Shown here in pieces: positions 11,469 through 51,504 of a DNA stretch of 64,000 bases. Made by a program: the position numbers and the translations under genes. This DNA is from Gemmatirosa kalamazoonensis (GTDB taxonomy: Bacteria > Gemmatimonadota > Gemmatimonadetes > Gemmatimonadales > Gemmatimonadaceae): NCBI RefSeq assembly GCF_000522985.1, contig NZ_CP007128.1:4262220-4326219 (forward strand), read 5' to 3'. A model generated the notes under the pieces. It saw only the letters and a list, made by a program, of their open reading frames with translations, searched no databases and was not told the DNA's origin. The stretch's first letter is position 1; every line of letters starts with the position of its first letter.

Positions 11469-11471
11469 GGG

Positions 11472-12680: not shown

Positions 12681-12689
12681 GAGGCGGCC

Positions 12690-15299: not shown

Positions 15300-15350
15300 G
15301 CGGGAGCACCGGCGGGCGAGACAGGCCTAACAACACCCGGAGGTGTCGTC

Positions 15351-15674: not shown

Positions 15675-15692
15675 TCGCCGCCTCCTCTCCGC

Positions 15693-17828
<2,136 letters not shown>

Positions 17829-17882
17829 CGATTGACCCTTCTATTCGGGGGCAGACGGTGGAGGCGGAAGGCGAGTACTCAT

Positions 17883-17931
17883 GGGGATCCGACGGCGATC
17901 CGAAGATCCGAGCGATCGCCGTCGGATCCCC
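17883..17931. terminator. Perfect 18-bp hairpin after paaY
   Basis: Arms 17883-17900 and 17914-17931 are exact reverse complements with a 13-base loop. It lies 21 bases beyond the paaY stop and before the paaZ start. There is no T-tract. Confidence 0.75.
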
Positions 17932-17952
17932 TGAAGCAGTTGCCACCCACCT

Positions 17953-18561: not shown

Positions 18562-18570
18562 GGATGCTCG

Positions 18571-18650
18571 TCCACGCTCCACGCTCCACGCTCCTCGCTC
18601 GCCACGTCGCGGCGGGATAGGGAGCGTGGAGCGTGAAGCGTCGAGCGTGA
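18571..18650. repeat. Tandem-armed hairpin after the thiolase gene
   Basis: The left arm (18571-18594) is three copies of TCCACGC/CTCCACG. The right arm (18621-18650) is GGAGCGTGGAGCGTGAAGCG-type tandem units on the same strand, giving partial complementarity. It lies between the thiolase stop (18659) and the paaY start (18561). Confidence 0.8.
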
Positions 18651-18658
18651 AGAGGACT

Positions 18659-19864
18659 TCATGGTCTTTCGATGACGGTCGCCATCCCCTGCCCCACGCC
18701 GACGCACATGGTGCACAGCGCGTAGCGCTCGCCGCGCTCGCGCAGCTCGTGGGCCGCCGTGAGCAGCAGGCGCGCGCCGGACATGCCTAACGGATGGCCG
18801 AGCGCGATGGCGCCGCCGTTCGGATTCACGCGCGCGTCGTCGTCGGCCACCCCGAGCTCCCGGAGGCAGCCGAGGACCTGCGCGGCGAACGCCTCGTTCA
18901 GCTCCAGCAGCCCGAGGTCGTCGAGCGACAGCTTCGCTTTGCGAAGCGCCTCGCGCGTCGCCGGGACGGGCCCGAGGCCCATGACGCGCGGCTCCACGCC
19001 CGCCACCGCCGTGCTGACCACGCGCGCGAGCGGCTCGACGCCGAGCTCCTTTACGACGTCCTCCGACGCGACGAGCAGCGCGCACGCGCCGTCGTTCAGC
19101 CCCGAGGCGTTGCCCGCGGTGACGCTCCCGCCCTCGCGGAACGCCGGGCGCAGCTTGGCGAGCCCGTCGAGCGTCGTGTCGGGGCGTATGAACTCGTCGT
19201 GCTCGACGCGCACGGTGCCCTTGCGACCTGCCGGCACGTCGACCGGCGTGATCTCCATCGCGAAGCGTCCGCGCGCGCGCGCCGCGGCGGCCTTCTGCTG
19301 CGAGCGGCACGCGAACAGGTCCTGGTCCGCGCGCGAGATGCCCATGCGCTCGACGACGTTCTCCGCCGTCTCGCCCATCGCGTCGGTGCCGTACGCGGCG
19401 CGCATCCTCGGGTTCACGAAGCGCCAGCCCAACGACGTGTCGAACAGCTCGACGTCGCGGCCGAACGGCTTGGACGCCTTCGACATCACGAACGGCGCGC
19501 GCGTCATGCTCTCGACGCCGCCCGCGACGTAGACGTCGCCGTCGCCGAGCATCACCGCGCGCGCCGCGTGCGCCGTCGCCGCCATACCCGACGCGCACAG
19601 GCGGTTCACCGTCTCGCCGGGCACGGTGACGGGCAAGCCGGCGAGCAGCCCCGCCATGCGCGCGACGTTGCGGTTGTCCTCGCCCGCCTGGTTCGCGCAG
19701 CCCAGGATCACGTCGCCGACGCGCGCCGGATCGAGCCTCGCGTGGCGCTCGAGCAGCGCGCGGATGACGTGCGCGGCGAGGTCGTCGGGACGCGCCTCGG
19801 CGAGCGCGCCGGCGAGGCTGCCGATCGGAGTGCGGGTGCCGTCTAGGAGGAAAGCGGATCGCAT
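18659..19864 (-). CDS. paaJ: 3-Oxoadipyl-CoA / 3-oxo-5,6-dehydrosuberyl-CoA thiolase
   Basis: Thiolase of 401 residues that cleaves the last phenylacetate-pathway intermediates to acetyl-CoA and succinyl-CoA. Active-site elements are complete: nucleophilic Cys in [11 protein letters not shown] (about 91), His in [14 protein letters not shown] (about 355) and the second Cys in [12 protein letters not shown] (about 387). The start is taken at the ATG 19864 ([15 protein letters not shown]); a TTG one codon upstream is an alternative. The PLGM codons contain TTAGGC. It is the centre of the block paaG-paaH-paaI-paaJ-paaY-paaZ. Confidence 0.95.
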
Positions 19865-37743: not shown

Positions 37744-38325
37744 TCATTCCCACTTCAGGTCCCACTCGCAGAACGCATCGCCTTCCAGCGCGCAGCGGAC
37801 GTGACGGACGCGCGCGCGTTCGCCCCCCGCGATCTCCACCGCCTTCGCGAGTCCCCCGGTCTGACGGCGGCAGAAGTGGCGGCTCGTGTGGTCGAAGCCG
37901 ACGAGCCGGAGCACCACCCGCCCGCCCCGATCGCCGATCGACTCCGTCTCCACCACCTTCATGTCGCCCGGGTGGTAGTACAGCCGGAACAGCGACACGC
38001 TCTGCGTCGCGAACGCGAGCGGCGACGACTTGCGCAGGATGCCGCCGTAGAGCTGCACGCCGAGCGACTCGATGGCGAGCGCGCCGGCGCGCTCCGGCCA
38101 GTCCGGCACCGCCGGACCGACCACCGCGTCGGTCGCCTCGGAGACGCGCAGCCAGAGCGCGAACGGCACCTCGTCCGTCGCGCTGAGCGACTCGACGAGC
38201 GCGCGGTCCGCGTCGGACAGCCGCGTCAGCACCTCGCGCCGCGCCGCCTCGCCGCGCGTGCTCGACACGAACTCCAGCGTCGCACGGATCGTCGATCCCT
38301 TCGCGACGAGCTCCGCCACGGTCAC
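37744..38325 (-). CDS. V4R/DUF2378-like protein at the end of the LacI operon
   Basis: A 193-residue protein starting VTVAELVAKGSTIRATLEFV and ending RHVRCALEGDAFCEWDLKWE. The layout fits the myxobacterial DUF2378 family and the 4-vinyl-reductase (V4R) ligand-binding fold, whose C-terminus carries H-x-x-R-C ... C-E-W. It may sense a small molecule or bind metal through the two Cys residues; no activity can be assigned. The GTG at 38325 overlaps the acyl-CoA ligase stop (GTGA). It is the last gene of the long minus-strand operon. Confidence 0.7.
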   Translation of the reverse strand: MTVAELVAKGSTIRATLEFVSSTRGEAARREVLTRLSDADRALVESLSATDEVPFALWLRVSEATDAVVGPAVPDWPERAGALAIESLGVQLYGGILRKSSPLAFATQSVSLFRLYYHPGDMKVVETESIGDRGGRVVLRLVGFDHTSRHFCRRQTGGLAKAVEIAGGERARVRHVRCALEGDAFCEWDLKWE

Positions 38326-39893
38326 GACTCCGCTCCCGCGCGCGCGGCGAGCGCCGCGCGGTCCACCTTCCCCGAGCCGAGCCGCGGCAGCTCGGCCAGC
38401 ACCGTTAGGCGCTTCGGCAGCTTGTAGCCGGCGAGCGCGCCGCGCGCGTGCGCGAGCACCGCCGCCGGATCGATCGACGCGCCGCGCGCGGCGACGAGGA
38501 ACGCGTGCCCCACCTCGCCCCACTTCGCGTCGGGCACGCCGACGACGGCCGCCTCCGCGACGTCGGGCGCGTCGCACAGCACCGCCTCCACCTCGCCCGG
38601 AAAGACGTTCTCGCCACCCGAGATGTACATCTCCTTCTTCCGGCCGCAGATCGTGTAACGCCCCGCCGCGTCGCGGCACGCGAGATCGCCCGTGCGCAGC
38701 CAGCCGTCGGACGTCACCGCTTCGGCGGTGCGATCCGGCGCGCGGAAGTAGCCGGCGAACATCTGCGGGCCGCGCAGCCACAGCTCGCCCGGCTCGTCGA
38801 CGTCGGCCGTGGTGCCGTCGTCGCGCACGAGCCGCATCTCGAGCCCCACGTTGGGCCAGCCGACGGTGTGCGGATGCGCGTCCGCGGTCTCGTCGTTCGT
38901 CGCGAAGCAGTTCGGGCCGCACTCCGTCAGACCGTACCCCTGCCGCATGCCGTAGCCCGCCGCGCGCACCGCGGCGCGCACGCTCGGCGGACACGGCGCG
39001 CCGCCGGAGATGAAGTAGCGAAGCCGCGGCAGCGGCGTGCCCCACCGCGGCGAGGCGAGCAGCATCGTGAGCTGCGTCGGCACCGCGAACGCGACCGTGC
39101 ACGCCTGCTCGTCGAGCGCGGCGAGAAACCGGTCCGCGTCGAACCCGTCGCACAGCACGACCGTCGCGCCGACGTGCAGCAACGGCGTCGTGAACACGTG
39201 CCACCCGCCGGTGTGGAACATCGGCGTCGCCACCGGCGCCACGTCGTCGGGACCGAGCCGCCAGCCGACGGTCGTCGCGATCGCGTTGAACAGCAGCTGG
39301 CGGCGCGGGAGCACGACGCCCTTCGGCCGACCGGTGCTCCCCGACGTGTACAGGATCATCGTCGCGTCGTCGGCCGCGCCGGCGACGACGTTAGGCACGC
39401 GCGTCGAATCCTCGTCGTCCGCGGCGTCGAGGGCCAGCGCGGGCGTCGCGGCGCCGCGCTCCGCCTCGGCGCGCGCGGCGACCGTCGCGTGGCGCTCGTC
39501 GATCACCAGCACCGCCGGCTCGGCGTCCGTGAGCACGCGCGCGAGCTCGGGGACCGAGAGCCGCCAGTTCAGCGGCACGAGCGCCGCGCCGAGCCGCAGG
39601 CAGGCGTGGAACAGCGCCACGCACTCCACGCGCGTCCCCGCGAGCAGCGCCACCCGGTCGCCACGCCGCACGCCGTGGCGCGCGAGCCGCGCCGCCCACC
39701 GCATCGCCATCGCGTCGAGCGCCGCGTACGTCGTGCGACGCCCCGTCACGCCGTCGATCACCGCCGCGCGCTGCGGCGCCAGCCGCGCCCACCGCGCGAC
39801 CGCGTCGTCGCCCTCCGGAAAGCTTGGCCACGCCGTGACCACGCCCCTCGTGGGCGTCGCGTACGCGGCGCCGACCTGCGCGCTCGTCGTCAC
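38322..39893 (-). CDS. Acyl-CoA ligase (AMP-forming), class I adenylate-forming
   Basis: ANL-superfamily enzyme of 523 residues. P-loop-like motif LYTSGSTGRPKGVV lies near residue 180, the A5 motif YGLTECGPNCF near 320, the hinge GELWLRGPQMFAGYF ... DGWLRTGDLACRDAAGRYTICGRKKEMYISGGENVFP near 400, and the catalytic Lys in LPRLGSGKVDRAAL near the C-terminus. It resembles medium/long-chain or aromatic acyl-CoA ligases. With the esterase just upstream (4-bp overlap) it probably activates the acid that the esterase releases. The GTG start at 39893 overlaps the esterase stop. Confidence 0.93.
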   Translation of the reverse strand: MTTSAQVGAAYATPTRGVVTAWPSFPEGDDAVARWARLAPQRAAVIDGVTGRRTTYAALDAMAMRWAARLARHGVRRGDRVALLAGTRVECVALFHACLRLGAALVPLNWRLSVPELARVLTDAEPAVLVIDERHATVAARAEAERGAATPALALDAADDEDSTRVPNVVAGAADDATMILYTSGSTGRPKGVVLPRRQLLFNAIATTVGWRLGPDDVAPVATPMFHTGGWHVFTTPLLHVGATVVLCDGFDADRFLAALDEQACTVAFAVPTQLTMLLASPRWGTPLPRLRYFISGGAPCPPSVRAAVRAAGYGMRQGYGLTECGPNCFATNDETADAHPHTVGWPNVGLEMRLVRDDGTTADVDEPGELWLRGPQMFAGYFRAPDRTAEAVTSDGWLRTGDLACRDAAGRYTICGRKKEMYISGGENVFPGEVEAVLCDAPDVAEAAVVGVPDAKWGEVGHAFLVAARGASIDPAAVLAHARGALAGYKLPKRLTVLAELPRLGSGKVDRAALAARAGAES

Positions 39894-40816
39894 TCGTCCC
39901 TCGGATGCCGCGCGAAGAACGCGAGCATCAGCTCCGTCGCCTCGGGGCCCGCCTCGTCGGCGAACGTGCCGGCGCGCGAGCCGCCCGACCACGCGTGCCC
40001 GAGCTCCGACACCACCGCGAGCTCGACGAGCGTCGACCCGCCGCGGCCCCACCGCGCCAGCTCCACGCGCCGCCCGCGCACCTCGGCCGACTCCGGCGCG
40101 CCGTTAGGCACGGGGCCGAACGCCATCGCCCACTGCTCCGCGATCTGGCGCGCATTGCGCGCGCTCACGGTGTTGTCCGCGAGCCCGTGCACGACCAGCA
40201 GCGGCACCGCGCGACTCGGCTCGCCCGCGACCGCGAGCAGCCGCGCGGCGAGGTCCATGCCGTCCGGCGCACCGGTGCGCATCATCGCCCACGCCGCCTC
40301 CGCCGTGACCGCGACGCCGACCGCCACGCCAGAGTGCGACGCCGCCGAAGCGTAGAGCTCCGGGTGCGACGCGGCGACGATGAGCGCCATGGCGCCGCCG
40401 GCGGAGATCCCCGCGAGGTACACGCGCCGCGCGTCGACGGCGAACCGCTGCATCACCTCGCGCGTGATCCCCGCCACGAGCGCCACCTCCTCGCCGTCGC
40501 GCCGCTGCTGCGCGGCCTCGAACCACCGCCAGCAGCGCAGCGGGTTCGCCGTCGCGACCTGCTCGGGGTACGCGACGAGCGCGCCGGAGCGCTCGGCCGC
40601 CGCGTTCATCCGCGTGCCGCGCGCGAGGTCGTCGGGATCCTGCGTGCAGCCGTGCAACATCACGACGAGCGGCGCGGGTCGGCGCGCGTCGTAGCTCGCC
40701 GGCACGTACAGCTTGTACCGGCGGGCACCCGGCGCTCCGGCGTACGTGTGCCACTCGAACCGCCCCTCCGCTGCCGGCACCGTGACGGCCGGCGGCTGCG
40801 TCGGCGCCGCGGTCAC
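39890..40816 (-). CDS. PHB-depolymerase-family esterase without a signal peptide
   Basis: Alpha/beta hydrolase of the PHB depolymerase/CE1 group, 308 residues. It shows PLVVMLHGCTQDPDDLARGTRMNAAAERSG, LVAYPEQ, NPLRCWRWF, the nucleophile elbow YLAGISAGGAMAL (Ser about 131), VVHGLADNTV (acid) and ELGHAWSGG (His). Secreted relatives cut short-chain polyhydroxyalkanoates, feruloyl or acetylxylan esters. Here the N-terminus (VTAAPTQPPAVTVPAAEG) has no signal peptide, so it likely acts on imported ester oligomers in the cytoplasm. It overlaps the TonB receptor gene and the acyl-CoA ligase by GTGA. Confidence 0.92.
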   Translation of the reverse strand: MTAAPTQPPAVTVPAAEGRFEWHTYAGAPGARRYKLYVPASYDARRPAPLVVMLHGCTQDPDDLARGTRMNAAAERSGALVAYPEQVATANPLRCWRWFEAAQQRRDGEEVALVAGITREVMQRFAVDARRVYLAGISAGGAMALIVAASHPELYASAASHSGVAVGVAVTAEAAWAMMRTGAPDGMDLAARLLAVAGEPSRAVPLLVVHGLADNTVSARNARQIAEQWAMAFGPVPNGAPESAEVRGRRVELARWGRGGSTLVELAVVSELGHAWSGGSRAGTFADEAGPEATELMLAFFARHPRDE

Positions 40817-43413
40817 CGCTGGAACCGCACGCCGAGGAACGCGATCGGTCCGATCTCGGGCATGTTGATCATCTCGACGTGGCGGCGATTGAACCCACAC
40901 GAGCGGTCCTCCTGGTCGATGATGCTGTTCGGCTGCGCGCCCGTCGGGAGCTTGCTGGCCGGCACGTAGGTCACGTCCTGCGCCGTGCACGAGAGCAGGT
41001 TGCTCACGCCGAGGTTGAGCATCGTGTTCTGCAGCGTCGAGAGCTTCAGCGACACCGACGCGTCGAGCGTGCCGAACGTCGGAACGACGCCCTGGTTCGA
41101 GCCCGAGCGGAAGTAGTACGCGTTCACGTTGCGCCACGTCGCGCCGAACGTGAGCGGTCCGACGTCGCGCGCGGTCCCGCCGAACGTCCACTTCGTCGTC
41201 GGCGAGTTCAGCGACGTCGCCTCGGGGCTCGCGCCGCTCGGCGTCGTCAGCTCGTCGATCTTCACCGTCGACACCGTGCCGCGCAGCTCGACGTGCGGCG
41301 TGGCGACGAAGTTCGCGCCGATGTCCGTGCCCGAGACCTTCGCGTTCCCGAGGTTGTAATAGATCAGGACGATCGGCGAGATGTTCGCCTGGTTCACGAT
41401 GCGTCCCTGCGCGTTCACCGGGATGTGGTTCCCCGGGTTCTCGGTCGGCACGGCCCACGTCGCCGCGCCGCCCGCGGCGAACGGGTTCCCGACGATCGTC
41501 AGGGGGCTCATGAAGTTCTGGTAGTCCGAGCGGAAGTATGTCGCGTCGAGGTACAGCCGCTGCGCGAGCACGCCCTTGTAGCCGAACTCCCACGTCTTGT
41601 TCGTCTCCGGCACCATCGCGCCGTACGTCGACACCGTGTTGCCCGCGGCGTTCACCGTCTTGAAGCCCGTCGTGTTGCCGTAGATCGAGATGATGCTCGT
41701 CCAGTCGGGGATGAAGAAGTTCGTCTGCAGGATCGTCGGCGACTTGAACGCGCGGTTGAACGTCACGCGCAGCGCCTGGTCCGCGATCGGCTTCACCACC
41801 ACGCCCGCCTTCGGGCTCCACTGCGCGTGATACACGCTCGGCTTGTCGTAGCGCCCGGCGAGCACCACGTCGAGCCACGGCATCACCGGCGTCGTGGTCT
41901 GCGCGTACACGCCCTTCTGGTCGTTGCTGATGTCGGAGCCCGTGATGCGGTCCGTCAGCCACTGCCGGTCGCTGCTCACCACGTCGTCCCGGTACTGCGC
42001 CCCGAACACGACGGCAGTGTTGCGCAGCGGTGCCACGACGTAGTTGCCCTGTGCCTCGCCGGCGTACATCCGACCGTCGCTCGGCCAGTCCGACAGCATG
42101 CGCAGTGAGTCGGGCGACAGGCTCGCGGTCGCCGGCGTGAGCTGCGCGCCCGCGTAGCGGTTCAGCGCGAAGGACTTGCCGCTCTGCGACTGCGCGCGAT
42201 AGGCGTTGAGGTACCAGTGCGGCGTCGTGTAGCGCGCCTGCGCGACGTTGTACTTCCACCCCGAGAGCTGGTTGCGGCCGACGTTCGTCTGCCCCACGCC
42301 GTCGGTGACGCTCATCCCCGCGTTCACCTCGAGACGGTTCTCGCCGTCGTACCAGACGACCGCGCCGGTGCCGCGCGCGACCTTCGCCTTCCAGTCGATC
42401 GGGGTCTTCAGGTTGTCCTCGCGCACGAGTCCCGTCGCGCACGTCGGCTTCTGTCCTGCGGCGAACGACACCGCGCCGCCGGCCGTGTAGCACAGGTAGT
42501 TCGCCCAGTCGTTCGCCGTCTGGTACTCGCCGGCCACCTTGAAGCCGAGCGCACCGCTCGACGTCGTGTTCGCGTAGCGCCCCTGGATGTCGGCGTAGCT
42601 CCGGTTGCCGCCGGTGATCTCCAGCGTCGCGCCCTTGTATTGCCGCGGATCCTTCGTGCGCAGCGACAGCACGCCGTTCGACGCATCGGGCCCATACAGC
42701 GCGGAGCCCGGGCCGACGAGCACCTCGAGCCCGGCGAGATCCACCTTCGGTGTCGGCGTGAACGAGCCGACCGGCAGCCCGTTCTCGGGCAGCACCGAGA
42801 TGCGGCCGTCCTCCACCATGAGGAACCGGTTGTTGAACGACGAGTTGAACCCGCGCGCGTTGATCGCGATCGCCGTCATGCCGACCTGGATGAAGTCGAC
42901 CCCCTTCGCCTCCTTCAGCGCGCCGGCGAACGTGTTGCCGACCGACTGGTCCAGCGTCTCCGTGCCGATGCTGGAGATGGTCGCCGGCGCGTCGGTGATC
43001 TTCTCCACGCGCCGCGACGCCGACACCACGACCCCGCCTAACGACGCCGCGGCCGCCTCCAGCGACGCGTCCGCCGCGGTGGCCTCGCCCGCGCGGACCA
43101 CGACGTTCGGCACCGACCGCGGGCGCTGTCCGATGCGCTGCACGCGCACCTCGTACGTGCCGGCCGGCACGCCGCCGATCACGTAGCGCCCGTCGAGCCC
43201 CGAGAGCGCGCCGAGCCTCGTGCCGGTGAGCGAGACCTGCGCGCCCTGCACCGGCGCGTGGTTCTCGTCCGTGATCACGCCGACCACGCGGCCCGTCGCC
43301 GTGGCCTGCGCCGCGAGCGACGCGGGGACGGCGACGAGCGTGATCAGCGCGACCAGCGGCGCCGCGCGCACGACGAGCGCGCACGCGAGCGAGCGGTGGG
43401 ACAGCCTCTGCAT
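40813..43413 (-). CDS. TonB-dependent outer membrane receptor
   Basis: Outer-membrane receptor of 866 residues. A signal peptide (LVAVPASLAAQA) is followed by a carboxypeptidase-regulatory-like domain (VVGVITDENHAPVQGAQVSL ... VRVQRIGQRPR). The plug (APATISSIGTETLDQ, LEVLVGPGSALYGPDASNGVLSLRTKDP) precedes a 22-strand-type barrel ending IAFLGVRFQR, with the terminal aromatic/Arg pattern. The ATG at 43413 follows GGAGGAATCCCC. It begins 61 bases after the symporter stop and overlaps the esterase gene, so it delivers the operon's substrate across the outer membrane. Confidence 0.94.
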   Translation of the reverse strand: MQRLSHRSLACALVVRAAPLVALITLVAVPASLAAQATATGRVVGVITDENHAPVQGAQVSLTGTRLGALSGLDGRYVIGGVPAGTYEVRVQRIGQRPRSVPNVVVRAGEATAADASLEAAAASLGGVVVSASRRVEKITDAPATISSIGTETLDQSVGNTFAGALKEAKGVDFIQVGMTAIAINARGFNSSFNNRFLMVEDGRISVLPENGLPVGSFTPTPKVDLAGLEVLVGPGSALYGPDASNGVLSLRTKDPRQYKGATLEITGGNRSYADIQGRYANTTSSGALGFKVAGEYQTANDWANYLCYTAGGAVSFAAGQKPTCATGLVREDNLKTPIDWKAKVARGTGAVVWYDGENRLEVNAGMSVTDGVGQTNVGRNQLSGWKYNVAQARYTTPHWYLNAYRAQSQSGKSFALNRYAGAQLTPATASLSPDSLRMLSDWPSDGRMYAGEAQGNYVVAPLRNTAVVFGAQYRDDVVSSDRQWLTDRITGSDISNDQKGVYAQTTTPVMPWLDVVLAGRYDKPSVYHAQWSPKAGVVVKPIADQALRVTFNRAFKSPTILQTNFFIPDWTSIISIYGNTTGFKTVNAAGNTVSTYGAMVPETNKTWEFGYKGVLAQRLYLDATYFRSDYQNFMSPLTIVGNPFAAGGAATWAVPTENPGNHIPVNAQGRIVNQANISPIVLIYYNLGNAKVSGTDIGANFVATPHVELRGTVSTVKIDELTTPSGASPEATSLNSPTTKWTFGGTARDVGPLTFGATWRNVNAYYFRSGSNQGVVPTFGTLDASVSLKLSTLQNTMLNLGVSNLLSCTAQDVTYVPASKLPTGAQPNSIIDQEDRSCGFNRRHVEMINMPEIGPIAFLGVRFQR

Positions 43414-43474
43414 GGGGATTCCTCCACGAGCGTTGAAGGTCGACATCGCCACGAAACGTCTCGGCCTCTCTGCG

Positions 43475-45010
43475 CTACACGTCCATCACGAGCCGCACGT
43501 CGCCGTCGATCGCCGCCGCGGCGCGCGCGCGCGTCAGCCACGATCCGGCGAAGAACACCAGCAGCGACAGCACCAGGCCCACCGCGGTCCCGCTCACGCC
43601 CGCCGGAAACGCGTACAGCTTCAGGTACGCGAGCGTCTCCAGCGTCAGCGTGGTGGCGAGCCCCGTCACGATCGACGCGATCGCGCCCGCGCGCGTCGCG
43701 CCCGCCCAGTTCAACCCGATCGCGAGCGCGGGCACCGTCGTCGATGCGAACAGCCCCCAGCCGAACACGCCGAGGAACGCCACCAGCGCGCCCGAGTACT
43801 GCGCGATGAGCCCCGCCAGCAGCGCGAGCACGAGCGTCGAGATGCGCCCCCACCGCAGCTCGTTCCGCAGCGGGCGGCCCAATGCCGTCGGCAGGTCGTG
43901 CGTCACCACCGCCGCGCCGATGTTGATGAACGAGTTCGTCGCCCCCATCGTCGCCGCGGCCACGCCGGCGAACACGATGCCCGCGAGCAGCGCGGGCGTG
44001 AACTGCAGCAGGAAGCTCGGCGTCGCGGCGTCCGGCTTCGCGAGCGGCGCCATCCGCTGCGCGGACACGAGCGCCTTCACGCCGACGCCCACGCCGAAGT
44101 ACAGCAGCAGCACCACGAGCTGGCCCACCGTCTTCAGCATCGGGTACCACTTGAGCTGCTTCGGGTCGCGCAGCATGTAGTACTTGTGCACGGCCTGCGG
44201 CTGGCCTAACGAGCCCATGCCGAACACGAAGAACAGCGACAGCGCGGCGAGCGGTGTCATCTTCCCGAACGGTCCGAGGAACCCCGCGTCCGTCGGCGTG
44301 ATCGCGTTCGACAGGCCGGCCATGCCCCCGCCCAGCTTCAGCACGTACACGAATACCGCCGACGACGCGACGGCCATCAGCGTGCCCTGGAACACGTCGT
44401 TGTAGATCCCGGCGAGGATGCCGCCCGCCACCGAGTACGCGAGCGTGACGCCCATCCCGATCCAGATCCCCCACGTCACGCCGACGCCGAAGATCGCGTC
44501 GAGCACGTAGCCCATCGCCAGGCAGTTCGTCGCCATGTAGCCGACGATGCCGACGAGGATCGCGATGCCCGACAGCCCCTGCGCCATCGGCGACCGGTAC
44601 CGCGCGCCGATCGCGTCCGGCACCGTCATCAGCCCGCGCACCTCGCCGAGCAGCCGCATGCGCTTCGCGAGCACCCACGCGCCGAGCACGTTCGTCACCG
44701 CTGCGGGGAGGATGAGAAAGAGCGCGCCGAGCCCCACCGAGTACAGCAGCCCGGGGCCGCCGATGAACGCGAAGCCCGACACCGACGTCGACACCGACGC
44801 CACCGTCAGCGCCACGAGCCCGATCCCGTGCCCGGCGACGAAGAAGTCGCTCGCCGTCCGCGTGCGCCGCGCCGCCCACACGCTGACGCCCACGATCACC
44901 GCGAAGTACGCGAGCGCCACGCCGACGATGGTCGGGTCGCCGAACCGGTCGAGCTGCGCGGCGCCGGTCTTCTGCTGCACCAGCGCGAGCGAAGCGAGGG
45001 AGCTGCTCAT
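43475..45010 (-). CDS. Sodium:solute symporter (SSS family)
   Basis: Integral inner-membrane transporter of 511 residues with about 13 helices. The SSS signature region is seen in DFFVAGHGIGLVALTVASVSTSVSGFAFIGGPGLLY and the later VAAATMGATNSFINIGAAVVTHDL. Members move acetate, proline, pantothenate, sugars or other solutes with Na+. Together with the preceding small membrane protein (ATGA overlap) the arrangement resembles ActP-YjcH-type monocarboxylate transporters. A substrate that is a small acid released from an ester is therefore plausible, but this is inference. Confidence 0.94.
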   Translation of the reverse strand: MSSSLASLALVQQKTGAAQLDRFGDPTIVGVALAYFAVIVGVSVWAARRTRTASDFFVAGHGIGLVALTVASVSTSVSGFAFIGGPGLLYSVGLGALFLILPAAVTNVLGAWVLAKRMRLLGEVRGLMTVPDAIGARYRSPMAQGLSGIAILVGIVGYMATNCLAMGYVLDAIFGVGVTWGIWIGMGVTLAYSVAGGILAGIYNDVFQGTLMAVASSAVFVYVLKLGGGMAGLSNAITPTDAGFLGPFGKMTPLAALSLFFVFGMGSLGQPQAVHKYYMLRDPKQLKWYPMLKTVGQLVVLLLYFGVGVGVKALVSAQRMAPLAKPDAATPSFLLQFTPALLAGIVFAGVAAATMGATNSFINIGAAVVTHDLPTALGRPLRNELRWGRISTLVLALLAGLIAQYSGALVAFLGVFGWGLFASTTVPALAIGLNWAGATRAGAIASIVTGLATTLTLETLAYLKLYAFPAGVSGTAVGLVLSLLVFFAGSWLTRARAAAAIDGDVRLVMDV

Positions 45011-45564
45011 GCCCGTTCCCTCCTGCCCGCGCGCCACGAGACGGCCGCCTCGCGCACGCGTGCGAGATCCTCGTCGCGCAGCGTCTGCGCGTCGAACGTG
45101 AGCGCGTACGCCGCCGGCAGCACGAACACCGGCAGCAGCCCCACGCCGTACACGATGATCGCCGCCCGCCGTGGAAGGCCTAACAGCAGCGGCTCCGTTT
45201 CCCCGGCACCCGCGGCGGGCAGCGCGAGCGCGAGACAGAAGCCGCCCGCCAGCATCAGGCCCACGAGCGCGAACGCCGCGCCTAACGTGCCGGGCAGGCG
45301 TCCGGCGCGCGCCGCGCCGAGCACCATCACACCCACCAGCGCGAGCGGCACGCCGGTCGCCAGCAGCCACGCCGCCCACCCCGGCGGTCCGGCCGTGCGG
45401 AACGCGCTCGCGTAGGCCACCGCGATCGCGAGCGTCGCGGCGACCAGCAGCGCGATCGCCACGCGCGTCGCGGGCCCCTGCGCCACCGGGCGCGACGCGC
45501 CATGCGCCGTGTCGCGCGGCGCCGCGTACGTGTCGCGCGCCGTCGGATCCATCGTCGTGCTCAC
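45007..45564 (-). CDS. Small membrane protein partner of the symporter
   Basis: A 185-residue protein with four predicted membrane helices (ATRVAIALLVAATLAIAVAYA, AAWLLATGVPLALVGVMVLG, TLGAAFALVGLMLAGGFCLALAL, AAIIVYGVGLLPVFVLPAAYALTF) and a cytoplasmic C-terminus (EDLARVREAAVSWR). I cannot name the family. Its coupling to the symporter (ATGA) parallels the small accessory subunits DUF485/DUF4212 of other SSS transporters. The GTG at 45564 overlaps the acyl-CoA ligase stop; an ATG four codons later is an alternative. Confidence 0.75.
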   Translation of the reverse strand: MSTTMDPTARDTYAAPRDTAHGASRPVAQGPATRVAIALLVAATLAIAVAYASAFRTAGPPGWAAWLLATGVPLALVGVMVLGAARAGRLPGTLGAAFALVGLMLAGGFCLALALPAAGAGETEPLLLGLPRRAAIIVYGVGLLPVFVLPAAYALTFDAQTLRDEDLARVREAAVSWRAGRRERA

Positions 45565-47342
45565 CGGAACAGCGCCTCCACCGCATCCGCGTGTCGCGCG
45601 GCGACGACCGCGCGCTTGACCTTGAGCGTCGCCGTGAGCTCGCCGGCGCTCTCCCGGAGCTCCCCCGGCACCGCGCGCCACCGCCGCACCTGCTCGTGCG
45701 GCGCGAGCGTCGCGTTCACTTCGCGCACGTGCGCGTCGAGCGACGCGTCGTCGGCCGCGGCGCCGTCGCGCAGGAACAGCAGCGCGCCCACGTGCTTGCG
45801 GCCGTCGCCGAACACCACCGCCTGCGCGACGCGCGGGTGCTCCGCGAGCCGTCCCTCGATCGGGAGCGGCGCCACCTTCTTGCCCGTCGACAGCGCGAGC
45901 AGCTCCTTCTTGCGCCCCGTGATCGCGAGCCGTCCGCGCTCGTCGATCCGCGCCAGATCGCCGGTGCGCAGCCAGCGCCCGTCGTCCGTGAACGCGTCGC
46001 GCGTCGCCTCGGGTCGTCCCCAGTAGCCCGCGAACGTCAGCGCGCCGCGGCCGATCAACAGCTCGCCGTCGGCCGCGATGCGGAGCTCCGTGCCGAGCAT
46101 CGGACGGCCGACGCTGTCGAAGTCGTAGTCGTCCGGACGATGGAACGCGACGCACAGGTGCTCGGTCTGCCCGTACGCCCCGAGCACCGTCACGCCCATC
46201 GCGTCGAGCGCTTCCGCGACGTCGGGCGCGAGTGGCGCGCCCCCCGACGTCGCGAGCCGCATCCGGTCGCCGAAGATCGACGCGAGCGGCGCTGCCGCGA
46301 CGTCGCGCAGCGACGCCCAGGCGCGTTCGAGATCCGCGGGCACCGCGGCGCCCGCGCGCCGCAGCCGCGAGCGATCGACGCCGACGCGGAGCAGCTCGTC
46401 CCAGCGCAGGCGCGCCTCGTTAGGCACCGCGGCGCGTGCCGCGAGCAGCGCGTCGCGCGCTCGCTCGTACAGCCGCGGCAGCCCGCCGAACACCGTCGGG
46501 CGGAACGTCCGCGCGGCCTCCCACAGCCGCGACGCGTCGGCCACGAGCCCCGCCTCCATCCCCACGACGATCCGCGTGTAGTGGCCGAACACCCGCTCCG
46601 CGGCGTGCGCGTACGGCAGCACGGACAGCGAGCTGTCGCCCGCCACGAGCTTCAGCGCGTCCGCGATCGACTCCGCCGACGCGAGCAGGTACTCGTGCGA
46701 CACGCAGGCGCCCTTCGGCTCCCCCGTCGAGCCGGACGTGTAGATCAGCCCCGCGACGTCGTCGGGCGCCGCGGCGCGCGCACGGCGCGCGATCTCCGCC
46801 GCCACCGCCTCGTCGGCCAGCGCGCGCCGGCCGCCGTCGAGCCACTCGTCCCACGTCGCCGCGCTCACGATCCGGCGTCCGTCGCTCGGCGACACCTTCG
46901 CGAGCTGCGCGGCGCCGTCGACGAGAAGCACGCGCGCGCCACAGTCGCCGAGCAGCGCATCGGCCTGCGCCGCGGTGCACGTCGGGAACAGCCCGACGAC
47001 GATCGTGCCGGCGAGCAGCGCGCCGACGTCGACGATCGGCCACAGCGGTGTGTTGCCGGCGAGGATCGCGACCCGGTCTCCGGCGCGCACGCCATCGGAG
47101 ACCAGCGCCGCCGCGACGCACGCCGCCGCCGATGCCCACTCGCTCCACGTGATCGTCTCGTCCGCCGCCGCGCCGCCGGCCGCCAGCGCGCGCAGCGCCG
47201 CGACGTCGGGCGTCGACTCCGCGCGCGCGAGGAACCGCCGCAGCACCGTGTCGTGCGCCAGCGCGTCCGCTCGAACCGGCACCCGCGGCATCTCGCTCGG
47301 CGCGTACGCGTTCGCGCGCTCGGCACGCGTCGGCGTGCTCAC
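45561..47342 (-). CDS. Long-chain-type acyl-CoA ligase (AMP-forming)
   Basis: ANL enzyme of 593 residues resembling FadD15-type ligases. Motifs: LIYTSGSTGEPKGACVSHEYLLAS (about 195-218), PYAHAAERVFGHY, GAYGQTEHLCVAFH, and DGRWLRTGDLARIDERGRLAITGRKKELLALSTGKKVAPLPIE, with the C-terminal ELTATLKVKRAVV. It activates a carboxylic acid to its CoA thioester. It is the second ligase of the operon; the two may act on different chain lengths or on acid and hydroxy-acid products. GTG start overlapping the KAS III-like gene stop. Confidence 0.92.
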   Translation of the reverse strand: MSTPTRAERANAYAPSEMPRVPVRADALAHDTVLRRFLARAESTPDVAALRALAAGGAAADETITWSEWASAAACVAAALVSDGVRAGDRVAILAGNTPLWPIVDVGALLAGTIVVGLFPTCTAAQADALLGDCGARVLLVDGAAQLAKVSPSDGRRIVSAATWDEWLDGGRRALADEAVAAEIARRARAAAPDDVAGLIYTSGSTGEPKGACVSHEYLLASAESIADALKLVAGDSSLSVLPYAHAAERVFGHYTRIVVGMEAGLVADASRLWEAARTFRPTVFGGLPRLYERARDALLAARAAVPNEARLRWDELLRVGVDRSRLRRAGAAVPADLERAWASLRDVAAAPLASIFGDRMRLATSGGAPLAPDVAEALDAMGVTVLGAYGQTEHLCVAFHRPDDYDFDSVGRPMLGTELRIAADGELLIGRGALTFAGYWGRPEATRDAFTDDGRWLRTGDLARIDERGRLAITGRKKELLALSTGKKVAPLPIEGRLAEHPRVAQAVVFGDGRKHVGALLFLRDGAAADDASLDAHVREVNATLAPHEQVRRWRAVPGELRESAGELTATLKVKRAVVAARHADAVEALFR

Positions 47343-48361
47343 GCGTCCCTCCAGCGCAGCGCCACGCAGCCCATCGACAGCCCCGCGCCCGACCCGGTGA
47401 GCAGCACCAGGTCGCCGTCGCCGAGGCGCCCGGCGCGCGCTGCGTCGTCGAGCGCCATCGGAAGGCACGCCGATCCGGTGTATCCCCACTTGTGCATGAC
47501 CGTGTGCGCGCGCTCCATCGGCGCGTCGAGCGTGCGCATCACCGTCTCGATCGTCGAGCGGTTCACCTGCGTCCACAGCCACAGGCCGACGTCGTCCACC
47601 GATGCGCCCGCGCGCGCGAGCACCGAGCGCGCGATGCGCGGCCATCCTTCCTCGTTCACCGAGGCTGGATACTTCTGCACGAACCGCAGCCGGTTGCGGT
47701 ATCCCTCGCGCAGCACCGCTTCGGTGATCGGCTCCGCGGTGCCGCCGGCGAACACACCCATCCCCGGCGCCAGTCGTCCGTCGGCGTACAGCTCCGACGC
47801 GACGATCCCGTGCGCGCGCGACGCCTCGAGCATCACCGCGCCGGCGCCGTCGGCGAAGATCGTCGACGTCTTCTTGTCGGCGCGGTCGAGGAACTTCGAC
47901 ATCGCGTACGCGCCGACCACCAGCACGCGCGAGTACCGCTCGTCGGCGCGCACGTACTTCCACGCCACGTCGAGCGCCGTCACGAACCCCGCGCAGCCGC
48001 TGTTGACGTCGAACGTGCCGGCGCGCCACGCGCCCAACCGCCCCTGTACCACCGCCGACGTCGCCGGCGACACGTACTCCGGCGTGTCGGTCGCGACGAT
48101 GAGCAGGTCCACGTCCTCGGCGGCGACGCCCGCATCGTTCAGCGCGCGTCGTGCCGCCCGCTCCGCGAGGTCGGCGGTCGACTCGTCGTCCGCGCACCAC
48201 CGCCGCTCGCGGATGCCTAACGTGTTCGACACGAAGTCGTCGACGTCGGTGCCCAGCGCCGCGGAGAGCTCCGCGTTCGTCACCACGCGCGCCGGCGCGT
48301 ACGAGCCCGTGCCCGTGATCGCGGCGTGGCGCACGCCGGCGGAGGATCCGTTCGCCGTCAC
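47339..48361 (-). CDS. KAS III-like thiolase-fold protein with altered active site
   Basis: FabH-like protein of 340 residues. The nucleophilic Cys is present in FDVNSGCAGFVTALD (about 123). The FabH His of PHQAN aligns with Thr in LWLWTQVNRSTIE, and the Asn of GNTSAAS aligns with Tyr in HKWGYTGSACLP. The usual Cys-His-Asn triad is therefore incomplete, unless the nearby His of MHKWGY substitutes. This suggests acyl transfer or another thioester reaction rather than fatty-acid initiation. It lies between LacI and an acyl-CoA ligase with 4-bp overlaps on both sides, so it belongs to the operon rather than to a fab cluster. Confidence 0.9.
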   Translation of the reverse strand: MTANGSSAGVRHAAITGTGSYAPARVVTNAELSAALGTDVDDFVSNTLGIRERRWCADDESTADLAERAARRALNDAGVAAEDVDLLIVATDTPEYVSPATSAVVQGRLGAWRAGTFDVNSGCAGFVTALDVAWKYVRADERYSRVLVVGAYAMSKFLDRADKKTSTIFADGAGAVMLEASRAHGIVASELYADGRLAPGMGVFAGGTAEPITEAVLREGYRNRLRFVQKYPASVNEEGWPRIARSVLARAGASVDDVGLWLWTQVNRSTIETVMRTLDAPMERAHTVMHKWGYTGSACLPMALDDAARAGRLGDGDLVLLTGSGAGLSMGCVALRWRDA

Positions 48362-49434
48362 GAGACCGGCCCCGACGTCCCGCGCGCCACCAGCTTCACG
48401 GGCAGCAGTGCGGCACGCGCGCGCGGCGGCTCGCCGCCGAGCTGTCGCACGAGCAGGCGCGCGGCGCGTGCCCCGAGCTCGCGCGCCGGCACCGCGACCG
48501 TCGTGAGCTCCGGCGTCACGAGGCGCGCCATCTCGATGTCGTCGCACCCGACGATCGACAGCTCCGCGGGCACGCGCACTCCTGCCGCCGCGCAGCGCTT
48601 CAGCGCGCCGATCGCGACGAGATCGTTCGCGCAGAACACCGCCGTCGGCCGCGTGCGCTCGGCGAGCAGCGCGCGCATCGCCTCGTCGCCACCGCGGACG
48701 GTGGCCGGCGCGCGCCGCAGCATCGGCGACGGCAGCGACAGCCCCGCCTCGCGCAGCCGCTGCACGAACCCGCGCTCGCGCATCCGGAACGCGTGGACGT
48801 CCGCCGCCGGCCCGATGAACGCGAGCCGCGTGTGGCCGAGCGCGAGCAGGTGCGTCGTCGCCTGTCGACCCGCGTCGAGCGCGTCGCTCGCCACGCCGGG
48901 CCACTGCTCGCTCGGCTCGTCGACGAGCACCACGTTCAGGCCGGCGAGCGCGTCCTCGTCGAGCGCGGCCGCGTTCACCGCGTCGATGATCACGCCGTCG
49001 ATCTGTCGGCTGACCAGCGTCGCGAGGTGCTCGCCGGCCGGGCGCTCCGCGGCGCCGCAGAGCAGCAGCGCGTACCCCGCCGCTCCGGCCACGCGCTCGG
49101 CGCCGCTCACGACGTCGGCGAAGAACGGGTTCCGCAGGTCCGGGACGATGACGCCCAGCGCGAACGACCGGCCGCGGGCGAGGCCACGGGCGAGCACGTT
49201 CGGTCGGTAGCCGAGCGCGTGCGCGGCGGCGAGGACCCGGGCGCGCGTTGCGGGCGCGACGCGGGCGGTGGGATGGTTGCCGAGGACGAGCGACGCCGTG
49301 GGCTGTGACACACCGGCCGCGCGCGCGACGTCGCGGACGGTCACCCGCGCGCCGGCCCCGGTGGCAGGGGCGGTCGGCGGCACGCCCGTGGCCGCGGCGT
49401 CGGAGAGGGATCGCGACGCGGGCCGGGGGGTCAT
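48358..49434 (-). CDS. LacI-family transcriptional regulator
   Basis: A 358-residue LacI/GalR protein with an unusually long N-terminal tail of about 30 residues (TPRPASRSLSDAAATGVPP). The helix-turn-helix follows (VTVRDVARAAGVSQPTASLVLGNH), with the hinge helix RVLAAAHALGYRPNVLARGLARG. The periplasmic-binding-protein-like sensor domain follows (LGVIVPDLRNPFFADVVSGAE, VVLVDEP, FCANDLVAIGAL). ATG at 49434 is preferred over the TTG at 49440, which would lie inside the operator. It is the first gene of the operon and almost surely regulates it and itself through the palindromes at 49436-49477. Its ligand is unknown. Confidence 0.95.
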   Translation of the reverse strand: MTPRPASRSLSDAAATGVPPTAPATGAGARVTVRDVARAAGVSQPTASLVLGNHPTARVAPATRARVLAAAHALGYRPNVLARGLARGRSFALGVIVPDLRNPFFADVVSGAERVAGAAGYALLLCGAAERPAGEHLATLVSRQIDGVIIDAVNAAALDEDALAGLNVVLVDEPSEQWPGVASDALDAGRQATTHLLALGHTRLAFIGPAADVHAFRMRERGFVQRLREAGLSLPSPMLRRAPATVRGGDEAMRALLAERTRPTAVFCANDLVAIGALKRCAAAGVRVPAELSIVGCDDIEMARLVTPELTTVAVPARELGARAARLLVRQLGGEPPRARAALLPVKLVARGTSGPVS

Positions 49435-49435
49435 C

Positions 49436-49453
49436 GGCAAATGCGTATTGGCA
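49436..49453. promoter_or_regulatory. LacI-type operator O1 (start-codon proximal)
   Basis: GGCAAATGCGTATTGGCA is an imperfect palindrome centred on CG (12 of 18 positions symmetric). It abuts the lacI start codon. It matches O2 best in its right half (ATTGGCA), and the two centres are 24 bp apart. Confidence 0.6.
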
Positions 49454-49459
49454 TCGGGG

Positions 49460-49477
49460 TGCTAATACGCATTGGCA
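49460..49477. promoter_or_regulatory. LacI-type operator O2 over the -10 region
   Basis: TGCTAATACGCATTGGCA is an 18-bp palindrome centred on CG with 14 of 18 symmetric positions, the typical LacI/GalR operator architecture. It covers the -10 region of the lacI promoter, so binding should block transcription of the whole operon. Confidence 0.72.
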
Positions 49478-49492
49478 CTCGACCGTTGTCAA
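49463..49492 (-). promoter_or_regulatory. Promoter of the lacI operon
   Basis: Reading the minus strand, a consensus -35 TTGACA (49492-49487) is followed by candidate -10 boxes CGTATT after 17 bases or TATTAG after 19 bases. Both lie inside operator O2. The likely transcription start falls between the two operators, leaving a short leader before the ATG at 49434. Confidence 0.65.
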
Positions 49493-49590: not shown

Positions 49591-50508
49591 ATGACCAGCT
49601 CTCCCGCGCCCGTTCCGTCGCCGTCGCCGCGCACGCCCCTCGTGGGCCCGTCGCCGAACCAGACGATGGAGCTCCCCGCCTATGCCCCCGGGGAGCTGCT
49701 CGACGTCCCGTCGCCCGACATCACGCTCCCCACCCGCGGCATCCGGCCACGGCGGCACAGCCGGGTCCAGCGCATCCTGATCGCGCTGTCGGGGGGCACG
49801 CTCCTCATCGTCATCGGCGGCGTCCTCGCGCTCGCCACGCTGCTCTCTCCCCTCGGCGCCCGCTCCGCGGCACGCCGTCTCGCCGAGCAGGAGCTGCGGA
49901 GCGAGCTGGAGGAGGGGGAGCACGTCATCGGCCAGGCGTACGTCTCGCAGCGGAACTGGTGGGACAACTTCCGTGAGTCGTTCGGCGTCCTCGCCGCCAC
50001 CGACCGGCGGCTGCTGTTCGTCGGCGTCCCGCCGGCGAGCTGGCTGCGCCGCAGCGAGGACGACGGCCCGCCGGAGCTCCGCGTCCAGAGTCTCTCGTAC
50101 GACGCGCCGTTCACGGCGCAGACACGCCGCATCCTGCTCTTTCCTGGCGTCGTGATCCAGACGACGAGCGGCGACCTCACGTTCCTCGTCCCGCGGGGCG
50201 AGGCGAGCCGCGTCGACGAGATCGAGCGCGTCGTCGAGCGGGCGCAGGTCGCGCAGAGCCAGGCCACGCAGCAGGAGCAGCTCGGCCGCATCGCGCCGCC
50301 GCCGCCGCCGCCACCGGTCTACGTCACGCATGTCGTGCACAGCGGCGAGTCGGTCACGTCCATCGCGCGCACCTACCGCACGACCCCCGACGTGATCCGC
50401 CAGCTGAACCGCCTGCCGACCGACCGCATCCGCATCGGCCAGCGCCTCCGCGTCCCGCAGGCGCCTAACGCCGCCCCCCCACAGCCGCAGCCGGCGAACG
50501 TGCCGTGA
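49591..50508 (+). CDS. Membrane-anchored LysM protein
   Basis: A 305-residue protein with a cytoplasmic N-terminus, one membrane helix (ILIALSGGTLLIVIGGVLALATLL, about 60-83) and a middle domain (EGEHVIGQAYVSQRNWWDNFRESFGVLAATDRRLLFVGVPP) that resembles a PH/bPH-like beta domain. A poly-Pro linker leads to a C-terminal LysM motif (HVVHSGESVTSIARTYRTTPDVIRQLNRLPTDRIRIGQRLRVP). LysM would bind peptidoglycan on the periplasmic side. ATG at 49591 follows the lacI regulatory region; a promoter was not identified with confidence. Confidence 0.85.
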   Translation: MTSSPAPVPSPSPRTPLVGPSPNQTMELPAYAPGELLDVPSPDITLPTRGIRPRRHSRVQRILIALSGGTLLIVIGGVLALATLLSPLGARSAARRLAEQELRSELEEGEHVIGQAYVSQRNWWDNFRESFGVLAATDRRLLFVGVPPASWLRRSEDDGPPELRVQSLSYDAPFTAQTRRILLFPGVVIQTTSGDLTFLVPRGEASRVDEIERVVERAQVAQSQATQQEQLGRIAPPPPPPPVYVTHVVHSGESVTSIARTYRTTPDVIRQLNRLPTDRIRIGQRLRVPQAPNAAPPQPQPANVP

Positions 50509-50520
50509 CGGCTGCTGCAG

Positions 50521-51504
50521 CTACTGGTTCAGGATCAGCGCGAACATCAACGGCGCCACGATCGACGCGTCGCTCTCGATCACGTACATCGGCGTCTCCC
50601 CGCCGAGCTTCCCCCACGTGATCTTCTCGTTCGGCGGCGCGCCCGAGTAGCCGCCGTAGCTCGTCGTCGCCTCGCTGATCTGACAGAAGTAGCCCCACAG
50701 CGGCACGTTCTCGCGCTGCAGGTCCTGGTGCAGCATCGGCACCACGCAGATCGGGAAGTCGCCCGCGATCCCGCCGCCGATCTGGAAGAAGCCTAACGAG
50801 TGCTCCGCCGTCAGCGACGTGTACCAGTCGGCGAGCCACACCATGTACTCGATCCCCGAGCGCACGGTGTGCACGTTCTTCACCTCGCCCGTGATCACGT
50901 GCGACGCGTACATGTTGCCCGTCGTCGAGTCCTCCCAGCCGGGCGTCACGATCGGCAGGTTCTTCTCCGCCGCCGCGATCATCCACGAGTCCTTCGGATC
51001 GATCTGGTAGTACTGCTCCAGCTTTCCCGCGCGCAGGATCCGATAGTAGAACTCGTGTGGGAAGTACCGTTCCCCCGCCGCGTCCGCCGCCATCCACTCC
51101 TCGAGCACCACCTTCTCGAGGCGGCGCATCGCCTCCGCCTCCGGGATGCACGTGTCGGTCACGCGGTTCATGTGCCGCTGGAGCAGCGCCTCCTCCTCCT
51201 TGATTGACAGCGTGCGGTAGTGCGGCACGCGCTCGTACGCGTCGTGCGCCACGAGGTTGAACAGATCCTCCTCGAGGTTCGCGCCTGTGCAGCTGATCGC
51301 GTGCACCTTGTCCTGCCGGATCATCTCGGCGAGCGAGATCCCGAGCTCCGCCGTGCTCATCGCGCCGGCGAGCGTGACGAGCATCTTCCCGCCCTTGTCG
51401 AGATGGCGGACGTAGCCGTCGGTCGCGTCGATCAGCGCGGCGGCGTTGAAGTGCCGGAAGTTGTGTCGCAGGAACTGCGAGACGGGCCCGTTCGCGTTCG
51501 GCAT
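50521..51504 (-). CDS. Deoxyhypusine-synthase-like protein lacking the active-site lysine
   Basis: A 327-residue member of the deoxyhypusine synthase (DHS) family: MLVTLAGAMSTAELGISLAEMIRQDKVHAISCTGANLEEDLFNLVAHDAYERVPHYRTL, and DSWMIAAAEKNLPIVTPGWEDSTTGNMYASH. Eukaryotic and archaeal DHS use a Lys in the motif GGGxxKHH to make hypusine on eIF5A. Here the equivalent stretch reads FFQIGGGIAGDFPICVVPML with no Lys. Bacteria generally lack eIF5A, so another reaction is likely, perhaps polyamine-related as in homospermidine synthase-like relatives; this is inference. It is transcribed alone after the DUF2156 gene on the same strand. Confidence 0.9.
   Translation of the reverse strand: MPNANGPVSQFLRHNFRHFNAAALIDATDGYVRHLDKGGKMLVTLAGAMSTAELGISLAEMIRQDKVHAISCTGANLEEDLFNLVAHDAYERVPHYRTLSIKEEEALLQRHMNRVTDTCIPEAEAMRRLEKVVLEEWMAADAAGERYFPHEFYYRILRAGKLEQYYQIDPKDSWMIAAAEKNLPIVTPGWEDSTTGNMYASHVITGEVKNVHTVRSGIEYMVWLADWYTSLTAEHSLGFFQIGGGIAGDFPICVVPMLHQDLQRENVPLWGYFCQISEATTSYGGYSGAPPNEKITWGKLGGETPMYVIESDASIVAPLMFALILNQ

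Follow-up and report, generated by a model that had tools for sequence, protein, structure and literature searches.

A conserved LacI-linked operon in Gemmatirosa kalamazoonensis predicted to scavenge an exogenous ester, possibly of the polyhydroxyalkanoate type

Nine genes of Gemmatirosa kalamazoonensis form a real unit, which we read, at a probability of roughly one half, as a self-contained, LacI-repressed operon through which the cell would scavenge an exogenous ester; short-chain polyhydroxyalkanoate (PHA) fragments (poly- or oligo-3-hydroxyacids) are its most likely substrate. If this is right, the Gemmatimonadota, a phylum common in soil and sparsely represented in culture, would own a dedicated and old system for the polyester fragments of others. 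The operon is apparently undescribed, as the first-pass annotation had thought possible, and no description of it was found in the open-licence literature. It also offers clonable targets, namely a LacI with a predicted operator, a receptor-tied PHB-depolymerase-type enzyme, and a protein of KAS III fold with changed catalytic residues.

Operon structure and control

All nine open reading frames are present in the G. kalamazoonensis window (the whole 64,000-nucleotide stretch of DNA that was analyzed), running from 49434 to 37744 on the minus strand (Table 1). Adjacent genes overlap by 4 bp at six junctions (lacI/kas, kas/lig1, mem/sss, tbdr/est, est/lig2, and lig2/v4r), a further overlap, lig1/mem, exists only if mem uses a possible alternative GTG start at 45564, and one 61-bp gap interrupts the series. 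A terminator scan of the minus strand, including this gap, found none. The one-strand, mostly overlapping arrangement in the first-pass annotation was thus confirmed, and family searches agreed with its calls of LacI, a KAS III fold, two AMP-binding ligases, an SSS symporter, a TonB receptor, and a PHB-depolymerase-family esterase.

Table 1. Features of the operon and its head region, with window coordinates (all genes on the minus strand)
Feature	Position	Sequence or length	Description
Operator O1	49460..49477	TGCTAATACGCATTGGCA	Perfect consensus match; palindrome kept at operon head in relatives
Operator O2	49436..49453	GGCAAATGCGTATTGGCA	Two mismatches; 24 bp from O1; immediately before lacI start
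lacI	48358..49434		LacI-family repressor, 358 aa; first gene
kas	47339..48361		KAS III-like protein, 340 aa
lig1	45561..47342		Acyl-CoA ligase 1, FadD11-like, AMP-binding + AMP-binding_C_3, 593 aa
mem	45007..45552		Small four-TM membrane protein, 181 aa; symporter's partner gene
sss	43475..45010		Sodium:solute symporter (SSS), 511 aa; optional inner-membrane importer
Intergenic gap	43414..43474	61 bp	Site of the PhaJ-like MaoC hydratase gene in relatives
tbdr	40813..43413		TonB-dependent outer-membrane receptor, 866 aa; signal peptide and CarboxypepD_reg domain
est	39890..40816		PHB-depolymerase-type esterase, 308 aa; without signal peptide
lig2	38322..39893		Acyl-CoA ligase 2, 523 aa
v4r	37744..38325		H-NOX-fold/V4R-like protein without heme His, 193 aa; usual last gene

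The order lacI-kas-lig1-mem-sss-(maoC)-tbdr-est-lig2-v4r was found in four Gemmatimonadota families at protein identities of 45–80%, and chance is ruled out as its origin because distant genomes keep the same gene order. The mem protein, which matched no Pfam family, is encoded beside sss at almost every locus, while sss occurs without the other operon genes in many relatives; mem-sss is a separable unit, and the symporter is not an obligate part of the operon. The pair was rejected as substrate-defining, since pair and operon each occur without the other. A search of genome contigs with the symporter returned three loci only, and plasmid searches with the receptor and with the V4R-like protein gave no useful match.

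LacI regulators are mostly sugar sensors. The LacI protein encoded here carries a helix-turn-helix and a periplasmic-binding-like domain (PF00356, 50 bits; PF13377, 140 bits), and a LacI-type palindrome with a central CG, TGCYAATRCGYATTRGCA, lies at the head of nearly all lacI-bearing loci, adjoining lacI in relatives too. In the 7.48-Mb genome, only two good copies (two mismatches at most) were found, both just upstream of lacI, against a chance expectation of 0.03 sites in the window; a genome-wide search found no wider regulon, the other sites having three mismatches and being little above control. Therefore, LacI reads as a repressor of this one operon, and lacI probably autoregulates. Scanning the minus strand for promoters gave no sigma-70 consensus. 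There is a TTGACA at 49492-49487, but its distance of 19 nt to a TATTAG within O1 is outside the spacing rule of the scan, and it was not counted. Synteny across families and the operator motif strengthen the reading of one LacI-controlled operon for ester uptake, hydrolysis, and CoA activation beyond the evidence from which it was first proposed.

Candidate substrates

The esterase scored 288.6 bits against the NCBIfam model of the scl-PHA depolymerase catalytic domain type 1 (NF050058; cut-off, 150 bits), and it is far nearer to LtPHBase, a proven PHB depolymerase and its closest solved structure (8daj), than to a feruloyl esterase (E-values of 4e-72 and 1e-15, respectively). Of 31 sequences aligned, at least 97% keep the Ser-Asp-His triad (S138, D214, H274). 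Judged by eye, the window esterase lacks an export signal, as had been noted earlier, and in this it departs from the extracellular enzymes of NF050058. However, the generalization drawn from that absence, that oligomers enter the cell before cleavage, was not borne out, as about half of the orthologues (about six of eleven) look exported; going by these sequences, absence of the signal peptide is a local trait.

In relatives, a PhaJ-like MaoC hydratase gene (5cpg, E 2e-32; 1iq6, E 3e-23 among solved structures) is inserted precisely at the 61-bp gap. It is absent from the operon in G. kalamazoonensis and several relatives, and a 42% homologue is encoded elsewhere in the G. kalamazoonensis genome. 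A FabG-like SDR is present in two operon variants (L046 and L186), and by sequence both partners point to (R)-3-hydroxyacyl chemistry. Among the substrates proposed in the first-pass annotation, PHA-type oligomers emerge as the best candidate, given the nearness of the esterase to PHB depolymerase and the PhaJ-like gene in the gap of relatives. A search of the genome found no PhaC (PHA synthase); therefore, no PHA store of its own was detected, which favors an ester taken from outside.

From this gene content, we infer the following sequence of steps. Without inducer, LacI would sit on both operators and block transcription. The TonB receptor would carry esters through the outer membrane, and the esterase would cut them in the cytoplasm in G. 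kalamazoonensis, or in the periplasm or outside the cell in relatives whose enzyme has a signal peptide. Where present, the SSS symporter and its small partner would move the acids through the inner membrane, the two ligases would turn them into CoA thioesters, the PhaJ-like hydratase would connect (R)-3-hydroxyacyl-CoA with beta-oxidation, and the KAS III-like protein may act on the CoA ester in a further step. Counted against a PHA substrate were the nearness of lig2 to feruloyl-CoA synthetase, the mostly sugar-sensing nature of LacI regulators, the missing MaoC gene here, the promiscuity of the esterase family, and the KAS III-like protein, for which we know of no role in PHA use.

Both ligases keep a C-terminal lysine in at least 97% of orthologues (K574 in lig1, K509 in lig2). 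Lig1 falls among the fatty acid ligases of the FadD type (FadD11, 284 bits), which would suit another aliphatic ester, such as cutin or suberin hydroxy-acids, esters of longer acyl chains, or an ester of a sugar that serves as the LacI ligand, with the ligases splitting the acids by length; the sugar sensing usual in the LacI family agrees with the last of these. LtPHBase-type enzymes are also promiscuous, LtPHBase itself cleaving PLA and PCL (PMC11544428), and the esterase family therefore does not fix the substrate. However, no recognizable glycosidase, sugar kinase, or sugar transporter was found in the operon versions examined, and the PhaJ and FabG-like partners suggest (R)-3-hydroxyacyl chemistry instead, so that we consider such an ester somewhat unlikely.

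The closest solved structure to lig2 is feruloyl-CoA synthetase (8weu/8wev, E 5e-94), which favors an aromatic, hydroxycinnamoyl-type ester: the esterase would free the acid, lig2 would form an aryl-propenoyl-CoA, MaoC would hydrate this product, and its shortening would fall to the KAS III-like protein or other enzymes. The PHB-depolymerase family borders feruloyl esterases, and the phenol sensor domain of PoxR falls in the H-NOX/V4R fold class, a weak pointer in the same direction. Against this, a genome search covering LigB-type and intradiol routes turned up no dioxygenase of the LigB type and, for the intradiol (protocatechuate) type, nothing more convincing than one marginal 75-residue match inside a 1401-aa frame, and the esterase sides with PHB depolymerase. 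The feruloyl-type substrate raised in the first-pass annotation is thereby weakened, despite lig2, and we regard it as unlikely.

The KAS III-like and H-NOX-like proteins

The KAS III-like call stood as to fold, but the protein is no ordinary condensing enzyme, because Thr and Tyr replace the catalytic His and Asn. In an alignment to E. coli FabH, C123 is kept, T264 takes the place of the His and Y294 that of the Asn, and all three residues are invariant in 23 of the 23 orthologues aligned, so that the FabH Cys-His-Asn triad is absent throughout. An OleA-type identity was rejected, the match being weak and the same His and Asn missing. Lipid and polyketide synthesis also use KAS III proteins with CoA ligases, and the two could in principle build an acyl product here, the receptor having a separate purpose; however, with the condensation residues lost in every orthologue aligned, and with importers and a hydrolase but no carrier protein in the operon, a biosynthetic role is highly improbable.

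Within a PHA-scavenging operon, the altered active site would predict new chemistry. Several observations support one such reading: (i) the Tyr and Thr are fixed; (ii) a Chloroflexota plasmid carries a 43% homologue that has the same Tyr/Thr and lies beside genes for FabG, DUF35, a CoA-transferase, and a hydrolase of the alpha/beta type; (iii) in one genus the Cys is replaced by Gly and the Tyr retained; and (iv) a minimal kas-lig2 pair occurs, in which the KAS III-like gene travels with the ligase. By analogy with Sal and Ltp2, the protein might represent a new subfamily of KAS III fold with a new reaction, namely a retro-aldol or related C-C cleavage of a 3-hydroxyacyl-CoA that the ligases and PhaJ-like hydratase would make or handle, an idea we hold to be speculative and quite doubtful.

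The V4R-like call fell below threshold in Pfam (PF02830, 19.6 bits; cut-off, 31), and a sequence profile found nothing meaningful among solved structures; the fold search did match, and the predicted structure has a complete H-NOX fold (Z 17.2, 168 residues, rmsd 2.3), which bears out the fold class. A Cys3His zinc motif (C152-H175-C178-C186) is invariant, no proximal heme His or YxSxR was found, and across 32 sequences no His other than H175 of the zinc motif is invariant. This heme-less protein probably senses a ligand or the redox state.

Comparison with known systems

FabH (KAS III) has its fold (TM about 0.85-0.9) and the Cys at the nucleophile position in common with the KAS III-like protein, which differs in its His-to-Thr and Asn-to-Tyr replacements and in its catabolic neighborhood. 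The steroid aldolase-hydratase pairs Sal/Shy and Ltp2/ChsH2 (PMC12329534, PMC11321319) also set a thiolase-superfamily protein that lacks the customary catalytic residues beside a MaoC-type hydratase, with a CoA ester as substrate. However, those proteins are SCP-2-thiolase-like, with a DUF35 partner, YDCY/YDHF residues, and steroid substrates, whereas the operon protein has the KAS III fold; neither a YDCY/YDHF motif in it nor a DUF35 gene among the operon genes was found, and the likeness is therefore one of analogy only.

LtPHBase of Lihuaxuella thermophila (8daj, 9byu), the closest solved relative of the esterase, has the Ser-His-Asp triad in common with it, but is known as a polymer-degrading enzyme and not from an uptake operon. 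Bacterial H-NOX proteins with a Cys3His zinc site (Shewanella oneidensis, Vibrio cholerae; PMC7108781) have matching zinc ligands (spacing 23-3-8 in the operon protein against 22-3-8), and Nostoc H-NOX matches over the complete fold (Z 17); the operon protein, in contrast, lacks the conserved proximal heme His, stands alone, and is encoded alongside LacI and a TonB receptor. Alteromonas macleodii MASE_06600 (PMC7190382) likewise couples a TonB-type outer-membrane receptor with a neighboring PHB depolymerase, its substrate also being only predicted, from the gene neighborhood; the passages on this locus describe the pairing, but not a LacI operator, ligases, a symporter, or KAS III-like and H-NOX-like proteins. 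If the PHA reading is right, the G. kalamazoonensis operon would be comparable to polysaccharide utilization loci, but for esters.

Conservation of the operon

The window (C2:4262220-4326219, from a 7.48 Mb genome on four contigs whose nearest named relatives are records labelled Gemmatimonadaceae) carries on its minus strand, from 49434 to 37744, the nine-gene operon described in the first-pass annotation; six of its gene junctions overlap by 4 bp, and a single gap measures 61 bp. The genes encode, in order, LacI, a KAS III-like protein (kas), a FadD11-like ligase (lig1), a four-TM protein without family (mem), an SSS symporter (sss; 80% identical to a homologue in Roseisolibacter sp. H3M3-2), a TonB receptor (tbdr), a PHB-depolymerase-type esterase (est), an AMP-binding ligase (lig2) and a product that reaches no family cut-off (v4r).

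The suggested synteny survey took in up to 20 kb of sequence surrounding homologues at about 85 places. The nine-gene locus is a real unit, because the order lacI-kas-lig1-mem-sss-maoC-tbdr-est-lig2-v4r is repeated across many genera of the family (L034, L043, L044, L047, L051, L052, L136 and contig-limited others) and in three other families, f4, f5 and f6 (L179, L182, L185, L201-L205); v4r is usually last. The hydratase gene maoC is absent from the operon in the window and in L034, a second esterase gene is present in several f6 genomes, and lig2 is missing from its usual place in several f5 genomes. Rearranged forms include genus g5 (L036, L037), with the receptor relocated upstream and an additional ligase and alpha/beta hydrolase; L060 and L142 (lacI-tbdr-est-v4r-mem-sss-maoC); L046 (lacI-tbdr-v4r-hydrolase-ligase-SDR-mem-sss); and L186 (lacI-v4r-tbdr-ligase-hydrolase-mem-sss-est-SDR). 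The constant core is LacI, the receptor and the V4R-like protein. Within the family, 20 of 148 genomes carry a close KAS orthologue (69-83% identity); phylum-wide, an identity of at least 64% is reached in about 37 of 395 genomes. A few matches at 50-53% come next, then a large set at roughly 41% or less, and this last set we take for housekeeping FabH. The parts are of known kinds; their combination, regulation and depth of conservation appear undescribed, as had been suspected.

Features of the window and of related loci
Feature	Location	Remark
Operator site	window 49460-49477	perfect match to TGCYAATRCGYATTRGCA
Operator site	window 49436-49453	2 mismatches to TGCYAATRCGYATTRGCA
LysM protein gene	window 49642-50508	adjoins next gene; this left flank of the operon is kept in several genera
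Deoxyhypusine-synthase-like protein	window 50521-51504	score far below every curated cut-off
Four-TM protein gene	window 45007-45552	unannotated; adjoins this SSS gene almost everywhere
Genes read as 4-hydroxyphenylpyruvate dioxygenase, homogentisate dioxygenase, aminotransferase	window 8859-13826	clustered; corresponding block adjoins operon site in relatives
Operon vs mem-sss without it, same site	L034 vs L035; L044 vs L048; L047 vs L053; L052 vs L056 and L058	
Second, divergent KAS III-like gene within operon	L185:3095-4120; L205:6413-7450	28% identity; no nucleophilic Cys
TetR-headed relative	L199:2721-10868	TetR-kas-sss-ligase-maoC
Catabolic-looking operon around KAS III homologue	L195 (CP069395.1), 8179-18993	includes DUF35, CoA-transferase, ABC importer

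Regulation and the V4R-like protein

Palindromes heading the operon in relatives share TGCYAATRCGYATTRGCA, of which the window holds two sites against 0.03 expected; all others genome-wide have 3 mismatches each. In 22 of 25 lacI-bearing loci, lacI is adjoined by a site with no more than 3 mismatches, L039 alone having none, and in L036 and L037 the palindrome lies upstream of the relocated receptor, the new operon head. This tracking of the operon head is strong evidence that LacI controls its own operon, as first proposed; a whole-genome motif scan of the window strain found no second target.

The predicted model of the V4R-like protein (pLDDT 95) aligns with H-NOX from end to end (Z 17). 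C152, H175, C178 and C186, invariant in 32 sequences, match the zinc ligands Cys139, His161, Cys164 and Cys172 of S. oneidensis H-NOX (PMC7108781). Because these sequences hold no invariant His besides H175, the protein probably lacks haem and may plausibly sense redox state or a hydrophobic ligand.

Symporter history and candidate substrate

The mem-sss pair occurs in 76 of 148 family members, mostly once per genome and often without other operon genes at the same site. Conversely, L131, L132, L133 and L189 carry the cassette without mem-sss between the DHS-LysM genes and acetoacetyl-CoA synthetase, where other genomes of that genus have mem-sss only. The symporter, part of the window operon as first annotated, therefore also serves outside it and is not an obligate part of it; the four-TM protein is possibly its small subunit. 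A quick tree of the symporter shows 12 changes of the cassette label, of which well-supported branches force at least 9. The best explanation for this distribution is an ancestor with the full operon, followed by reciprocal losses; exchange between lineages is a less likely alternative.

The esterase, with its Ser, Asp and His triad conserved across orthologues, has LtPHBase as its best match among solved structures (8daj, E 4e-72); this PHB depolymerase accepts PLA and PCL as well (PMC11544428). Feruloyl esterase is far behind. Its reported lack of a signal peptide holds by eye for the window copy, L036, L037, L039, L045 and L060 but not generally, as L034, L043, L044, L047, L051 and L052 show one. 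The 61-bp gap marks the missing maoC, found between sss and tbdr in relatives and nearest to PhaJ (5cpg, 1iq6); a 42% identical homologue lies elsewhere in the window genome. The nearest solved structure to lig2 is feruloyl-CoA synthetase, and lig1 is nearest to no single solved ligase. Searches of the window genome found neither PhaC nor a LigB-type dioxygenase, and only a marginal fragment match to intradiol dioxygenase. On balance, an exogenous PHA-type ester is the best candidate substrate, followed by another aliphatic or aromatic ester. The observation is upheld, and so is its general interpretation as ester uptake and activation; the substrate is a plausible candidate, and some details were wrong.

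The KAS III-like protein

Of the operon's products, the KAS III-like protein, predicted to have a FabH fold (pLDDT 85), is the likeliest source of novelty. Among 23 aligned orthologues C123 is invariant, as are T264 and Y294 at the FabH His and Asn positions. A 43% identical homologue on the Chloroflexota plasmid CP069395 has the same Thr/Tyr substitutions (TQV, WGYTGSACLPM) beside FabG, CoA-transferase, a DUF35 protein, an alpha/beta hydrolase and an ABC transporter. The TetR-headed locus of L199 apparently also encodes a hydrolase that is a lipoprotein and a protein of outer-membrane type. In genus g22, three genomes (L197, L198, L200) have a kas-lig2 pair alone, upstream of acetoacetyl-CoA synthetase and, where the contig shows it, at the operon's chromosomal site (LysM/DHS on the left in L197 and L198); in the two that were aligned, Gly replaces the nucleophilic Cys and the Tyr is retained. 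The steroid aldolases Sal and Ltp2 are thiolase-superfamily proteins that cleave 3-hydroxyacyl-CoA with Tyr-based sites beside a MaoC hydratase, and one has Gly instead of the nucleophilic Cys (PMC12329534). For the KAS III-like protein, these aldolases serve as an analogy.
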